Below are positions 1 to 61,369 of a DNA stretch of 64,000 nucleotides, one piece after another. The DNA is taken from the NCBI RefSeq assembly GCF_002261345.1, contig NZ_NEVT01000003.1:1-64000 (forward strand). The letters run 5' to 3'. A program made the position numbers and the translations under genes. The notes beneath the pieces are model-generated. The model was not told where the DNA came from. It did not search any database and worked only from the letters and a program-made list of their open reading frames with translations. This DNA comes from Bordetella genomosp. 2 (lineage in GTDB: Bacteria > Pseudomonadota > Gammaproteobacteria > Burkholderiales > Burkholderiaceae_B). Position 1 is the first letter of the stretch. Every line of letters begins with the position of its first letter.

Positions 1-143
1 GGCGTGCCGGTGGGGCCTGGGCGGCCAGTTGGAGCGAGGGCAGCCCCCGCAGGGGGCCGAGGGCGCCTGGTGGCGCGCCCGAGCCGAGCGACGTGGCCGG
101 CCGGGCCCCACCGGCACGCCCGGGCGTCTCAAGAACTCAGAAA
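1..143 (+). repeat. Structured dispersed repeat, copy A (three-helix element)
   Basis: Bases 1-17 are perfectly complementary to 104-120, and 23-27 pair with 94-98, making a long outer stem that may start before the window. Inside it are two hairpins: one with a GCA loop (stem GCCCCC/GGGGGC) and one with stem GGGCGC/GCGCCC at 61-80. A tail at 126-143 contains CTCAAGAACTCAGAAA. The loop and tail match copy B at 47848-47993, while the outer stem and the GCA-loop hairpin differ in sequence but still pair. It lies beyond the 3' end of the minus-strand oxidoreductase gene that stops at 205. I see no gene in 1-204. The element could be a mobile structured repeat or an RNA; its function is unknown. 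Confidence 0.75.
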
Positions 144-25110: not shown

Positions 25111-25147
25111 CGCGTCGGCGGGCGGCGGCCTTGCGCTTCCTCGCGCA

Positions 25148-25212
25148 GGTGTCAGACACCCCTTGCGCACCGTCCTGCCTGGCGGGATGACGCACAAGGG
25201 GTGTCTGACACC
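25148..25212. repeat. GGTGTCWGACACC palindrome pair forming a 65-bp hairpin
   Basis: Perfect 13-mers at 25148-25160 and 25200-25212 start 52 bp apart. The flanking bases also pair: the first 21 bases are complementary to the last 21 with one mismatch (CCCCTTGCGC against GCACAAGGGG), so the whole 65 bp can fold into one stem-loop. It lies in the 284-bp gap between phoB (minus) and ubiE (plus), where a bidirectional transcription block would be useful to neither gene's start, so repeat insertion is the simpler reading. The rest of the gap shows nothing else clear. Confidence 0.8.
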
Positions 25213-25287
25213 TATTTCCCCAGGCGCCGCCCGTACGTCCGCGCTGCCTCGATCGGCTACCATTGAGCCATATATTGGGATCCGACC

Positions 25288-37197: not shown

Positions 37198-38208
37198 TCA
37201 GCGCCGCGCCTGGTCCAGCGCCGCGCAGAGCTGTTCGGCGGCATCCACCAGGCGTGGGCCGGGCCGGTACAGCATGTCGGCATCGAGGCTGATCACCTGT
37301 CCGGGCGCCGCCGCCGGCAGGCCGTGCTCGCGCCACGCGCGCCGGCTGGCCTCGGCATCGGCGGGCCCGAGCACGCCGGCCACCACGGCCTGCGGCCGCG
37401 CCGCCAGCACGCTTTCCAGCGACACTTGCGGGGCCAGCACGGGCGCGTCGGCGAACACGTTGATGCCGCCGCACAGGCGCACCGCATCGCTGACGATGCT
37501 GGCGCCGTTGAGGGTATAGAGCGGTTGCAGGCCGGCCTGGATGAACACCCGCACCGGCTGGCGTCCCGCATAGCGCGCCTGCAGCGCCGCCAGGCGGGCG
37601 CGCAGGGCGGCCGCGGCGGGCCCGGCCTGGGCCTCGGTGCCGAACAGCCGGCCGAGTGTTTCCACCGAGTCGGCTATGGCCGCCAGTGTGCGCGGATCGC
37701 TGTAGTACACCGGCACGCCCAGCCGCCGCATCAGGTCGGGCAGCGGCTCCGGCACGGCGGGCTGCCAGGCGATCAGCAGGTCGGGCCGCAGCGCCACGGC
37801 GCGCTCCAGGCCGGGCCGCAGGCTGTCGCCGATGGACGGCAGGGCGCGGGCTTCTGGCGGATAGTCGCTGCCGAGCACGGTGCCCGCCAGGTAGCCGCCG
37901 GCGCCGGCCGCGTAGGCCAGCTCGGTGGCGTGCGGCGCGGTGCTGATGGCGCGCCGCGCCGGGGCCTGCAGTGTCACGTGGCGGCCCTGGTCGTCGCGCA
38001 CGGTGATGGGGCCATCCGCCGCCGGCGCGGCAGCCGCGGCGCAGGCCAGCGCCGCCGCCAGCCAGCGCCGCCGTCCCGCCACGCGGCCAGCGATCGAGGC
38101 AGCGGCTGCGGACTTCGGTGTCTGACACCCTTGGGGTGTCAGACACCTGGCGGCCGAGCCGGTGATCGAGGCAGCCGCTGCGGACTGCGGTGCGGGGGTG
38201 GGGCGCAT
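37198..38208 (-). CDS. btuF: Cobalamin-binding periplasmic protein BtuF-like
   Basis: The protein (336 aa from this ATG) is a cobalamin/siderophore-type periplasmic receptor: [37 protein letters not shown] and [14 protein letters not shown] are class III binding-protein blocks. A signal peptide ([16 protein letters not shown]) starts only about 45 residues in. The preceding stretch is derived from a 72-bp duplication carrying two GGTGTCWGACACC palindromes (encoding [10 protein letters not shown]), so the original start may be the GTG at 38082 (294 aa). The ATG at 38208 is five bases past the btuB stop, which suggests operon coupling with btuB. No btuCD is adjacent. Confidence 0.82.
38092..38186. 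repeat. 72-bp tandem duplication flanking the palindrome pair
   Basis: GATCGAGGCAGCGGCTGCGG (38092) recurs at 38164 with a single difference, continuing for 23 bases in all. The copies are exactly 72 bp apart, so the reading frame of btuF is preserved (SAAAASITG and SAAAASIAG). The palindrome pair lies between them. It looks like a duplication created with or around the insertion of the palindromic repeat. Confidence 0.75.
38117..38147. repeat. GGTGTCWGACACC palindrome pair inside the 5' part of btuF
   Basis: Perfect 13-mers at 38117-38129 (centre T) and 38135-38147 (centre A) are in inverted relation with a TTG between the 14-bp arms, giving a tight hairpin as well as each palindrome's own dyad. 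It is the only copy of this repeat family in the window that lies in an open reading frame, and its spacing (18 bp between starts) is much shorter than at the other loci. Confidence 0.8.
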
Positions 38209-46402: not shown

Positions 46403-47461
46403 TCATTCCGGCAGGCCCGCCGCCAGCAGGCCGTCCAGCAGTTTGCGGATGGGCGCCGGCAGCGCCAGGCCGGGCAGTTCGGCGGCGCCGGCCCAGCGCT
46501 GCGGCAGGCCCGGTTCGGCCAGCGCGGCGGCCGGTTGCACCGGCAGGTACCAGGGCTTGATGTGCAGGCGGTAGTGCGTGAACGTATGCGCGAAGGCGGC
46601 CAGTTCGTAGCGTTGCAGCGGTTCCAGGCCGAGCCGGCGCGACGCCTGCGTCGGGTCGCCGCCGGCGTCGAATTCGGGCAGGCTCCAGAGCCCGCCCCAG
46701 ATGCCGGGAGCGGGCCGCTGTTGCAACAGGATGGCGCCGTCGCGCTGCAGTACCAGCATGCCGGTCTGGCGCTCGGGGATGGTCTTGCGTGCCTTGGGGC
46801 TGGGCAGTTCCGCCTGGCGGCCGTCGCGCCGCGCGATACAGGTGTCGGCCACCGGGCAGCGCGCGCAATCGGGCTTGCCGCGCGTGCACAGGGTGGCGCC
46901 CAGGTCCATCAGGCCCTGGGTGTAGGCGGCCATGTCCAGGCCGGGCGCGGCGGCGACTTGCGCCTCGGCCAGGGCCCACAGCCGCTGCTCGACTTCGCGG
47001 CGCGCCGGGTCGCCGTCGATGCCGAAATGCCGGGTGAACACCCGCTTGACGTTGCCGTCCAGGATGGGCGAGCGCTCGCCGTAGGCGAAGGCCGCGATGG
47101 CGGCGGCGGTAGAGCGGCCGATGCCGGGCAGGGTGGCGATCTGTCCGGCCGTGGGAGGAAAGCGCCCGCCCCAGTCGCGCACCACCGCCTGTGCGCAGCG
47201 ATGCAAGTTGCGCGCGCGCGCGTAGTAGCCCAGCCCGGCCCAATAAGGCATGACGTCTTCCTGGCTGGCGGCCGCCAGGGTGGCCACGTCGGGAAAGCGT
47301 TCGAGGAAGCGCTGGTAGTACGGGATGACGGTGGCTACCTGGGTCTGCTGCAGCATGATTTCCGACAGCCAGATCCGGTAGGGGTCTTGCGTGCGCTGCC
47401 AGGGCAGGCCGTGACGGCCGTGGCTGGCCTGCCAGGCGACGATGCGGGGGGCGAAATCCAT
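46403..47461 (-). CDS. mutY: A/G-specific adenine glycosylase MutY
   Basis: A 352-aa DNA glycosylase. The catalytic Glu is in LSEIMLQQTQV, the helix-hairpin-helix is LPGIGRSTAAAIAAFAYG with the catalytic Asp in ILDGNVKRV, and the [4Fe-4S] cysteines follow CTRGKPDCARCPVADTC (C-x6-C-x2-C-x5-C). The C-terminal NUDIX-like domain (GILLQQRPAPGIWGGLWSLPEF) recognises 8-oxoguanine. It removes adenine mispaired with 8-oxoG. The gene starts next to the repeat-rich gap at 47462-48204. Confidence 0.95.
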   Translation of the reverse strand: MDFAPRIVAWQASHGRHGLPWQRTQDPYRIWLSEIMLQQTQVATVIPYYQRFLERFPDVATLAAASQEDVMPYWAGLGYYARARNLHRCAQAVVRDWGGRFPPTAGQIATLPGIGRSTAAAIAAFAYGERSPILDGNVKRVFTRHFGIDGDPARREVEQRLWALAEAQVAAAPGLDMAAYTQGLMDLGATLCTRGKPDCARCPVADTCIARRDGRQAELPSPKARKTIPERQTGMLVLQRDGAILLQQRPAPGIWGGLWSLPEFDAGGDPTQASRRLGLEPLQRYELAAFAHTFTHYRLHIKPWYLPVQPAAALAEPGLPQRWAGAAELPGLALPAPIRKLLDGLLAAGLPE

Positions 47462-47596: not shown

Positions 47597-47830
47597 GATG
47601 TCAGAGACCCGGATGAGGCAGGCGCATGCCCACGAGGTGTCAGACACCCGGCGAGCAAGCGCGGCAGATTCCGGACTGTCTCCCCAGGGTGTCAGACACC
47701 TGGATGAAGCAGGCGCATGCTCATGAGGTGTCAGACACCCGGCGAGAAAGCGTGGCAGATTCCTGACTGTCTCCCCAGGGTGTCTGACACCTGGATGAAG
47801 CAGACGCATGCTCATGAGGTGTCAGTCACC
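47597..47830. repeat. Array of six GGTGTCWGACACC palindromes in three 91-bp units
   Basis: Palindromes start at 47597 (degenerate), 47636, 47688, 47727, 47779 and 47818 (one mismatch). Start-to-start steps are 39, 52, 39, 52, 39, so the repeating unit is 91 bp and contains two palindromes. The intervening sequence is also repeated, for example TGGATGAAGCAGGCGCATGC and GGCAGATTCC..GACTGTCTCCCCAG. The array fills much of the 743-bp gap between mutY (minus) and the indolepyruvate oxidoreductase gene (plus). It is immediately followed by copy B of the structured repeat. The remainder of the gap, 47994-48204, shows no gene or motif I can name. Confidence 0.88.
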
Positions 47831-47847
47831 TGGATGAGATGTTGCCA

Positions 47848-47993
47848 GCCTCGTCGCTGCGGGCTTGGGGCGGGCGAGTTGGACGGCGGGGGAGCCTGCG
47901 CAGCAGGCCGAGGGCGCCTGGTGTTGCGCCCGAGCCCGACGGACGTCGCCCGCCCCAAGCCCGCAGCGGCGAGGCGACTCAAGAACCCAGAAA
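47848..47993 (+). repeat. Structured dispersed repeat, copy B (three-helix element)
   Basis: A 30-bp outer stem joins 47848-47877 and 47946-47975 with a single G-T wobble. The 68-base interior holds a hairpin with GCA loop (stem GCCTGC/GCAGGC) and a second with stem GGGCGC/GCGCCC and loop CTGGTGTT. The tail GACTCAAGAACCCAGAAA (47976-47993) follows. Compared with copy A the interior and tail are conserved, whereas outer stem and GCA-loop stem have changed on both strands together. It starts 17 bp after the palindrome array and lies 211 bp upstream of the oxidoreductase ATG. Confidence 0.85.
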
Positions 47994-48204
47994 GCACCGC
48001 AGCCAAGACACCGCCCGCAAAGCACCCCACGCACAGCGCCGCCGCCCCTCTATCGCTACGCCCTATTGCGCCAACCTGGCGCCCCGGGTACAACCTGGAT
48101 CAGAACAAAGCACAAAGGCACCCAGCCCGGACCGGCCCGCCCCCCGCTTCACGAGAGCCGGCGCGCGCGGCCTGCCCGGGCATTCCTGGATCCTCGGAGT
48201 AGAC

Positions 48205-51200
48205 ATGAATGCCCCTCTCACGCCCGCGCAGCGCGCGGCGCTCGAATCCGTCCAGCTGGACGACAAATACACCCTGGAAACCGGCCGCGCCTGGATGAGC
48301 GGCATCCATGCGCTGGTGCGTCTGCCCATGATGCAGCGCGTGCGCGACCAGCGCGCCGGGCTCAACACCGCCGGCTTCATCTCGGGCTACCGCGGCTCGC
48401 CGCTGGGCGGCGTCGACCTGAACATGTGGAAGGCCGCCAAATATCTCAAGGCGCACCACGTCGAGTTCCAGCCGGGCATCAACGAAGACCTGGCCGCCAC
48501 CGCGGTGTGGGGCTCGCAGCAGGTCAACCTGTTTCCCGGCGCGCGCTATGACGGCGTGTTCGGCATGTGGTACGGCAAGGGCCCGGGCGTGGACCGCTGC
48601 GGCGACGTCTTCAAGCACGCCAACGCCGCCGGCACCTCGCCGCACGGCGGCGTGCTGGTGGTGGCGGGCGACGACCATCCCGCCAAGTCGTCCACCCTGC
48701 CGCACCAGAGCGACCACATCCTGAAAGCCTGCATGATCCCGGTGCTGTTCCCGGCCAGCGTGCAGGAAGTGCTGGACTACGGCCTGCACGGCTGGGCCAT
48801 GAGCCGCTACGCCGGCGTCTGGGCCGGCATGAAGTGCATCACCGATATCGTCGAGGTGTCCGCCTCGGTCGAGGTCGATCCCGAGCGCGTGCAGATCGTG
48901 CTGCCGGACGACTTCCAGCTGCCGCCCGACGGGCTCAACATCCGCCTGCCCGACACGCCCTTGCAGCAGGAAGCCCGCCTGCTCGACTACAAACTGTACG
49001 CCGCGCTCGCCTATGCGCGCGCCAACCGGCTCAACCGCGAGCTGTGGCATGTGCCCAATGGCGAGGCGCGCTTCGGCATCATGACGTCCGGCAAGGCCTA
49101 CCTGGATACGCGCCAGGCCCTGGTCGACCTGGGCCTGAGCGAGCCGGTATGCCGTCGCATCGGCCTGCGCCTGTTCAAGGTGGGCATGGTATGGCCGCTG
49201 GAAGCGACCGGCATGCAGCAGTTCGCCGAAGGACTGGACGAGATCCTGGTGGTCGAGGAAAAGCGCCAGGTGCTCGAATACCAGCTGAAGGAGGAGCTGT
49301 TCAGCTGGATCGGCACCGGCAAGAAGATCCCGCGCGTGGTGGGCAAGTTCGACGACAAGGATGGCGGCGAATGGTCGGTGCCGCAGGGCAACTGGCTGCT
49401 GCCGGCGCACTACGAGTTTTCGCCCGCCATGGTGGCCAAGGCGGTGGGGGCGCGCCTGCTGCGCTTCGCGCTGCCCGACGACGTGCGCGCCGGCATCGAG
49501 GCGCGCCTGGCGTTCATCGAGGCGCGCGAGCGGGCGCTGGCCAGGCCGCGCGTCACCGCCGAGCGCAAGCCGTGGTTCTGTTCGGGCTGTCCGCACAATA
49601 CCTCGACGCGCGTGCCGGAAGGTTCGCGCGGCATGGCCGGCATCGGCTGCCACTACATGGTGACCTGGATGGGCCGCAACACCCAGGCCTATACCCAGAT
49701 GGGCGGCGAGGGCGTACCCTGGCTCGGGCAGGCGCCGTTCACCGACGAAAAGCACGTGTTCGCCAACCTGGGCGACGGCACCTACTATCACTCCGGCCTG
49801 CTGGCGATTCGCGCCGCGGTGGCGGCCAAGGCGCCCATCACCTACAAGATCCTGTTCAACGACGCGGTGGCCATGACCGGCGGCCAGCCGGTGGACGGGC
49901 CGATCGACGTGCCGATGATCACGCGCCAGGTGGCGGCCGAGGGTGTCGAGAAAATCGTCATCGTCACCGACGAGCCGGATAAGTACCGGAGCGTCGCCAA
50001 CCTGGCGCCCGGCGTGCCGGTGCGCCATCGCGACGAGCTGGACGCGGTCATGCGCGAACTGCGCGACCATCCCGGTGTGTCGGCCCTGATCTACGACCAG
50101 ACCTGCGCCACCGAAAAGCGGCGCCGCCGCAAGCGCAATGCCTACCCCGACCCGGCGCGCCGGGTGGTCATCAACGAGCGGGTCTGCGAGGGGTGCGGCG
50201 ACTGTTCCGAGCAATCGCATTGCCTGTCGGTCGAGCCGCTCGAGACCGAGTTCGGCCGCAAGCGCACCATTAACCAGTCCAGCTGCAACAAGGACTATTC
50301 CTGCCTGAAGGGCTTCTGCCCCAGCCTGGTCACCGTCGAAGGCGGCGCCTTGCGCAAACCGAAGGCGCTGGCGCAGGAAGGCGATATCGATGGCGGCCTG
50401 CCGCAGCCGCCGCTGCCGGGCCTGGCGCAGCCTTATGGCGTGTTCATCGCCGGCGTGGGCGGCACGGGGGTGGTCACCATCGGGCAATTGCTCGGCATGG
50501 CCGCCCACCTGGAAGGCAAGGGCTGTTCCGTGCTGGACATGGCGGGGCTGGCGCAGAAGGGCGGCGCGGTGTTCTCGCACGTGATGCTGACGCAGGCGCC
50601 CGATGGGCTGCTCAACACGCGGGTGGCCATGGGCGAGGCCGACCTGGTGCTGGCCGGCGACCTGGTGGTGGCCGCCAGCCAGGAATCGGTGGCGCGCATG
50701 CGCGCCGGCCGCACGCGGCTGCTGCTCAACAGCGACGTGGCGCCCACCGCCGCGTTCGTCCAGGACCCGGACTGGCGCCTGCCCGGCGCCGACCTGCAGG
50801 CGGACCTGCGCGCCGCCTGCGGCGAGGGCGGGGTGGACGCGGTCGATGCCGCTGCGCTGGCGCTGGGCCTGCTGGGCGACGCCATCTATGCCAACCCGCT
50901 GATGCTGGGCTATGCCTACCAGAAGGGCTGGCTGCCGCTGGGCGAAGCGGCGTTGCGGCGCGCCATCGAACTCAACGGGCAGCAGGTGGCCAGCAACCTG
51001 GCCGCCTTCGCCTGGGGCCGGCGCGCCGCCCACGACCTGGCCGAGGTGCAGCGCCTGGCCGGCCGCGCCGCCGCGCCGCAGGACGACGGCTTCGTCGAGG
51101 TGCGGCGCGGGCAGGCCGGCGCGGCCGTGCTCGACATGCGGCGTCCGGCCGGCGAGGTCGACGCGCTGGTGGCGGTGCGCAGCGAGTTCCTCACCGCATA

Positions 51201-61098: not shown

Positions 61099-61128
61099 GC
61101 CGCCCGGCATGCCGCGCCAATGAGGCGC

Positions 61129-61351
61129 GGTGTCTGACACCCCATGCGACGTCCGCGGCCGGCCCACGGTGGGGTGGGGGGTGTCAGACACCTATCCAGC
61201 TGAGTCGCCTGGCAGCCGCGCCGCTGAGGCGCGGTGTCTGACACCTGTTCCGTTCGAGCACCTGCCGTGGCGCGCTGGTGGGGGGCGGTGTCTGACACCC
61301 CGTGCGATGTCCGTGGCCGGCCTCGGGGTGGGGCATGGGGTGTCAGACACC
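61129..61351. repeat. Array of five GGTGTCWGACACC palindromes about 52 bp apart
   Basis: Perfect 13-mers start at 61129, 61180, 61233, 61287 and 61339 (steps 51, 53, 54, 52). The central base is T, A, T, T, A. Intervening segments are partly duplicated: 61142-61179 resembles 61300-61338 (TGCGAYGTCCGYGGCCGGCC), and the flank TGAGGCGCGGTGTCTG occurs twice. The array fills the 271-bp gap between the convergent Bug receptor and FAD monooxygenase genes, where hairpins could serve as a transcription barrier. Confidence 0.88.
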
Positions 61352-61369
61352 TTGCATCCACCCCGGCGG

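Follow-up and report, generated by a model that had tools for sequence, protein, structure and literature searches.

A 64,000-nucleotide window of the Bordetella genomosp. 2 genome (contig NZ_NEVT01000003.1, positions 1 to 64,000, forward strand) contains two stretches, designated copy A and copy B, that were described in an earlier note as copies of a structured dispersed repeat, and their presence raises the question of what maintains so large a fold: a function as RNA, a function as folded single-stranded DNA, or no function at all. The description as a real structured repeat holds, and the fold of each copy beats all 200 of 200 dinucleotide shuffles (copy B: RNA z -8.26, DNA z -8.68; copy A: RNA z -5.73, DNA z -5.27), but the second hairpin, the gene context and the copy number needed correction. 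The account preferred below, which we hold tentatively and short of calling it probable, is that of a non-autonomous, BIME-like element that functions as folded single-stranded DNA.

Anatomy of the two copies and of the repeated unit

The two copies, and the sequence to the left of copy B, comprise the following features:

47838..47996, plus strand: copy B, whole element with tail (covariance-model match 47839-47994)
47848..47877, plus strand: copy B, outer-stem 5' arm, 97% complementary to 47946-47975
47946..47975, plus strand: copy B, outer-stem 3' arm, partner of 47848-47877
47894..47908, plus strand: copy B, inner hairpin P2, GCCTGC-GCA-GCAGGC, with a GNA-type loop and C-G closure
47912..47931, plus strand: copy B, inner hairpin P3, GGGCGC, 8-nt loop CTGGTGTT, GCGCCC
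47978..47989, plus strand: copy B, 3' tail CTCAAGAACCCA
47599..47837, no strand assigned: tandem GGTGTCWGACACC palindromes with a 91-nt direct repeat (D2), in the expected place of a spacer and a lost left hairpin; genome G004 retains a left copy here
1..139, plus strand: copy A, its 5' side cut by the contig edge
1..20, plus strand: copy A, outer-stem 5' arm, pairs with 101-120
101..120, plus strand: copy A, outer-stem 3' arm, partner of 1-20
43..57, plus strand: copy A, inner hairpin P2, GCCCCC-GCA-GGGGGC
128..139, plus strand: copy A, 3' tail CTCAAGAACTCA

The 30-bp outer stem reported for copy B is indeed formed by two 30-nt arms, and the hairpin with the GCA loop is built as claimed, with different but complementary arms in the two copies; the outer stem of copy A comprises 20 bp and more. 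The second inner hairpin, in contrast, cannot be called conserved between the two, as the P3 sequence of copy B has its counterpart in a region where copy A folds in a different register. Conservation of the tail is likewise true in part: CTCAAGAACYCAGAAA occurs in both copies, and AAGAAC and adjoining bases are kept in further copies, but the conservation does not extend to the final GAAA. By our own reading of the frames, copy B occupies an apparently divergent intergenic region, between a minus-strand frame at 46403-47461 and a plus-strand frame with a likely start near 48205. Because copy A starts at base 1 of its contig (G000:C8), its partner and the gene upstream are out of view. Contigs of two other genomes also start inside or at element copies (G005:C6 and G003:C4, each at base 2), indicating that the repeat breaks assemblies and that draft genomes may understate its copy number.

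Each hairpin of the repeat is approximately 150 nt in length and consists of a long outer stem (34.5 pairs on average in 138 copies), a junction bearing the two inner hairpins P2 and P3, and a 3' tail. While a single copy had been taken as the unit, what is repeated is often two hairpins separated by a spacer: in the window's own genome many copies are paired, a class-1 and a class-2 hairpin lying on opposite strands with their tails facing outward. Specifically, among 88 loci with callable gene context, 59 hold a single copy and 29 hold two, and the tails-outward order is found in 28 of the latter (gap 58-392 bp), with one head-to-tail arrangement and no tails-inward arrangement. Altogether 60 tails-outward pairs were listed, some of them orthologous to one another and one with a gap near 640 bp; two more head-to-tail doublets occur in genome G519 (L233, L257, L250). 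Whole units, spacers included, align between loci of the window's own genome at about 70-88% identity, with many alignments starting at the tail. The spacers in this genome usually contain GGTGTCWGACACC palindromes, which were considered as a source of the structure and rejected because they form a separate set (354 genomic sites carry their 13-base core) and because the spacer of locus L016 contains none.

The tail is conserved well beyond the two copies in the window. Of 224 distinct copies, 134 carry AAGAAC, versus seven of 223 control stretches taken further out, these counts coming from related, and hence not independent, copies. Within the window's own genome the motif is distributed by class, being found in the tail of two of 14 class-2 copies and 15 of 17 others.

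Distribution and comparison with known repeats

The element is far more abundant than the two copies originally noticed would suggest, and further copies occur both within and beyond this genome. A covariance model (R1, 158 positions), built from 30 copies (the 30 rows of alignment A1), detects 31 copies in the window's own genome (32 matches, one of which is the opposite strand of another) as well as matches in relatives; a DNA search of the same genome returns 42 matches. Counted as model matches, among which there may be weak ones and cases of one copy matched on both strands, the element is found in all nine genomes of the window's genus (7 to 42 matches in each of the eight others), in eight of 121 genomes and four of 43 genera of a family-wide sample, and in six of 15 genomes of genus g36 (42, 24, 23, 5, 3 and 2 matches), the other nine having none. 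An order-wide search, in which seven candidates per genome were scored, provides a weak lower bound of at least two of 399 genomes, both in the window's genus. The spread of the element across genera is patchy. An exact 35-base core pattern, searched for in a collection of named genomes, occurs in two records, Bordetella genomosp. 13 and Bordetella ansorpii. Copies in the genera that hold few of them (L091, L092, L094, L097; G018, G014) mostly have the tail GGGTTAGC or GGGTTAGT in place of CAAGAAC, and one pair among them is situated between frames resembling leuD and leuB.

Among the closest described systems are REPs and BIMEs, with which the element shares an intergenic location, many copies, palindromic form, inverse pairs with a variable linker and, presumably, recognition of one strand. 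BIMEs, as outlined in PMC8266576, are inverse pairs of strand-specific palindromes between genes, an arrangement matched by the tails-outward pairs described above. Identity with REPs proper is rejected: REPs measure 20-50 nt and have a conserved tetranucleotide, most often GTAG, at the 5' foot, whereas the element is branched and some 150 nt long and has GAG or CAG, never GTAG, at its foot before the stem in the 30 rows of A1; in the window's own genome no RAYT (TnpAREP) gene, of the kind that accompanies some REPs, adjoins a copy; and, unlike REPs, the element has long perfect stems that drift in place. The ends of IS200/IS605 elements fold in a strand-specific manner, and their Y1 transposase cuts beside the hairpin; the strand asymmetry of the element is compatible with DNA or RNA. 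Integron attC sites, marked by R/C boxes and a neighbouring integron integrase, also fold as one DNA strand. ERIC, NEMIS and similar short repeats are, like the element, dispersed and foldable and roughly 100-150 bp in length; they are single units with other sequences, and we know of none with a branched head or tails-outward pairing.

Structured intergenic repeats have also been reported from Bordetella itself. BRE is described as a 75-91 bp repeat of Bordetella and relatives that often occurs in tandem (Hot et al., 2011; PMC3110155). In genome G097 (L296, 1310-1470) an 83-bp unit is present twice in tandem beside lexA, with hairpins bearing ATA and GTA loops, and by position and size this repeat is likely BRE locus 3 as given in the description of that family (PMC3110155). 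Comparison of this candidate BRE with the element yields a best BLAST E value of 0.014 over 23-27 bases and model scores of 10.8 and 9.5 bits (E 0.18 and 0.34), both units weakly touching the same core part of the model; G097 has no element match at 1e-5, and at lexA in the window's genus no BRE could be established. Lacking significant likeness to the candidate, the element is not identified with BRE, although remote kinship is possible. Three further families of intergenic stem-loop repeats are Bor-1 (117 bp in B. bronchiseptica), Bor-2 (167 bp) and Bor (26-30 bp) (Petrillo, 2006, 2008; PMC1590033, PMC2267715). Bor, as described, is far shorter than the element, while Bor-1 and Bor-2 are similar in kind and, judged from their descriptions only, possibly identical with it. 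Rfam has no family at gathering score in the window, and in the loci of four relatives only miRNA precursor models far below that score; in a set of open-access papers searched for the palindrome and tail strings and for Bordetella repeats, no description of this unit came up among the matches listed. With the reserve that it may equal Bor-1 or Bor-2, the unit appears new as far as compared.

Compensatory change and the folded strand

The covariation noted between copies A and B in separate helices is upheld by the wider set of copies. In a plain MAFFT alignment, made without structure, both partners vary at 20 of 49 pairs, and 98.1% of cells are paired. The observed paired percentage, double-change counts and covariation score are reached by none of 500 shuffles; the tally of further pair types does not exceed that of shuffles, 214 of the 500 attaining it, and in slid controls the paired share drops to 49% or less. 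The P2 helix alone, where its loop has three bases, occurs with 14 different five-base arm pairs. Moreover, covariation arises in place, between orthologous copies. In 34 ortholog comparisons (genomes G074, G511 and G519), hand-picked from 87 proposed pairs by dropping those that looked non-syntenic and with several copies entering two comparisons, there are 91 double changes from one Watson-Crick pair to another and five other double changes, together with 55 single-sided stem changes (26 to G.T, 5 to A.C and 24 other). The 91 comprise 47 transitions and 44 transversions, and the latter compensations, being transversions, could not have gone via a G-U pair. Exchange of arms between paralogous copies was rejected as a general source of this pattern because in most of the 34 comparisons no paralog is closer than the ortholog; in about six, one is.

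Covariation is usually regarded as proving that an RNA is functional. In this family, orthologous loci show compensatory change alongside signs that the folded strand may be DNA, and the original interpretation, selection on structure or a mobile element, is retained with a qualification: the structure does covary, but selection on RNA is not the sole reading. The mismatches reveal an asymmetry between the strands. In the outer stems of 138 copies, alongside 4571 Watson-Crick pairs, G.T outnumbers A.C by 75 to 16 (p 3e-10), and does so by 63 to 16 after collapse by genome and position and by 44 to 14 in the outer part alone; the same holds between orthologs (26 to 5, p 0.0002), and G.A exceeds T.C by 54 to 17. 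The excess of G.T over A.C singles out the tail-ending strand as the folding one, an asymmetry compatible with RNA and single-stranded DNA alike. A feature that points towards DNA is the loop of P2, which has three bases in 185 of 224 copies (21 have another loop length, some of these probably being P3 taken for P2, and 18 were missed). All but four of the 185 loops are GNA closed by C-G (GCA 108, GTA 41, GAA 31, GGA 1), leaving the middle base free, while control hairpins with three-base loops, drawn from a megabase of related genomes, have GNA in 72 of 1800 cases and in 27 of 752 closed by C-G; any test value from this comparison is overstated because the copies share ancestry. In DNA, extraordinary stability is ascribed to GNA loops on G-C stems (PMC4686876, PMC6479982). 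Together, the strand asymmetry and the loop suit folded single-stranded DNA no less than RNA.

These features can be accommodated by the BIME-like element proposed at the outset. Its full unit consists of two large branched hairpins on opposite strands, with CAAGAACYCA-like tails outward and a short spacer between. The folded single strand that terminates in the tail would be the working form; this strand, most likely of DNA that becomes single-stranded during replication or repair, may be recognised by a trans-acting enzyme, as the ends of REP/BIME and IS200/IS605 are; such an enzyme would have spread the units in the past, and the units at the compared loci would now be undergoing loss by deletion. 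A bolder extension, which we regard as possible but doubtful, is that the element represents a new class of mobile or architectural element whose ends are large branched single-stranded DNA hairpins, with a DNA-type GNA loop and covarying helices that drift at about the rate of the flanks and yet stay folded, acted upon by a predicted single-strand enzyme. If an enzyme that cuts or moves these units exists, BIME-like biology extends to branched ends of 150 nt.

Alternatively, the hairpin may be part of a transcript, either at the end of an mRNA or as a small RNA in its own right, and the fold may protect, end or process transcripts, with the pair serving both flanking genes, a reading that we place next in likelihood but still consider unlikely. 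A double strand of this length would be a fitting substrate for RNase III, the excess of G.T over A.C fits RNA as well, and the position of the element relative to genes deserves attention. Of the 88 loci with gene context called by a codon-position heuristic (13 of 101 loci were dropped for having no callable gene on one side), 35 are convergent, eight divergent and 45 tandem, counts that are not independent since loci of different genomes can be orthologous. The element is thus scarce between divergent genes, and its distance to gene 3' ends (median 106 nt, 115 values) is shorter than that to 5' ends (167 nt, 61 values). In tandem contexts, solo copies slightly favour the strand of the gene (21 of 30, p 0.04), which, like the nearness to 3' ends, points to RNA. 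The convergent excess, however, is also expected of neutral insertions that spare promoters, those in promoters being weeded out. Moreover, G.U pairs are rare (75 of 4763 stem pairs), a G.U intermediate is impossible for half of the compensations, no T run follows the hairpin in the tail profile, and the GNA loop closed by C-G is a DNA stability motif, its RNA counterpart being weaker. A riboswitch or other gene-specific leader, already thought unlikely, was rejected as such on account of the varying orientation of genes around the copies. Should the RNA reading nonetheless be true, Bordetella-type bacteria would harbour a large RNA family that has no name and is located close to the ends of genes.

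It is also conceivable, if improbable, that the element has no function, and that long palindromes perfect themselves by template switching in replication such that their arms change together without selection. Stems are changed at about 10% of sites and crudely aligned flanks at 11.6%, so that the stems change at nearly the rate of the flanks yet stay paired, the arms drifting, but together; double changes outnumber single ones, and half are transversions, all as palindrome correction would have it. Correction within double-stranded DNA nevertheless gives no reason for the excess of G.T over A.C, either among all copies or among orthologs, leaves the conserved GNA loop, the branched head and the tail unexplained, and sits poorly with double changes that are mostly isolated (73 run starts, 18 adjoining another). 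With its hundreds of natural replicates, the family offers a means of separating selection on RNA, selection on single-stranded DNA and palindrome correction. The left copy at L241/L249 has lost its branched head in G511 while keeping the long stem, the arms of which differ from those of G074 on both sides, a state that suits palindrome correction or selection on the stem alone.

Locus history and the search for a mover

The remaining explanation, an ordinary MITE with long inverted terminal repeats that is moved by a double-strand (DDE) transposase and whose hairpins are by-products, is suggested by the many intergenic, non-coding units with similar inverted ends, but it is very unlikely, given that no target duplication was seen by eye in the 60 listed pairs (their borders being set without empty-site support), that most loci hold solo hairpins, and that the branched head, the loop and the strand asymmetry are left unexplained.

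The suggestion that a mobile element was copied together with structured ends agrees with an architecture that is bipartite and tails-outward, but no insertion sequence or transposase could be tied to the element, and none was noticed among the frames read around ten loci. The window's own genome has one Y1_Tnp match (C8:92268-92594), which scores 77.7 bits to the NCBIfam REP-associated tyrosine transposase (cut-off 80). This RAYT-like gene was rejected as the obvious mover, as it adjoins other palindromes and not a copy: it is surrounded by seven AGGTGTCAGACACCC...GGGTGTCTGACACCT palindromes, and its 3.3-kb locus contains no significant copy of the large hairpin. The GGTGTCWGACACC palindromes, seven of which in double form surround this gene, likely constitute a separate REP/RAYT system.

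Comparison of loci between genomes provides a view of the fate of individual units. At the mutY locus, where copy B resides, the window's own genome has lost the left copy; in G004 a left copy lies towards mutY and a separate contig bears the right part; G003 retains the right part together with an apparent piece of the left tail, the two lying at different contig ends; and G001 has what appear to be the two outer halves, fused. No copy is present at this locus in G008, other sequence lies beside mutY in G005, G006 and G007, and the locus is split over contigs in G002. To judge from these alignments, the pair at mutY predates the species. Similarly, the copies missing within genus g36 at L241/L249, L246/L279 and L239/G511 are deletions that leave pieces of hairpin or tail. 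A clean empty site was found neither at mutY nor at L238/L260, L241/L249, L246/L279 or L239/G511, which, with the want of a target duplication and of an enzyme, counts against the single-stranded DNA reading. The compared loci display decay and drift, and we infer past dispersal of the element from its many non-allelic copies of whole units.

The GGTGTCWGACACC palindromes are found at four places in the window (25147-25213, 38128-38159, 47599-47837 and 61103-61363) and, outside it, at L031 (1179-2326).
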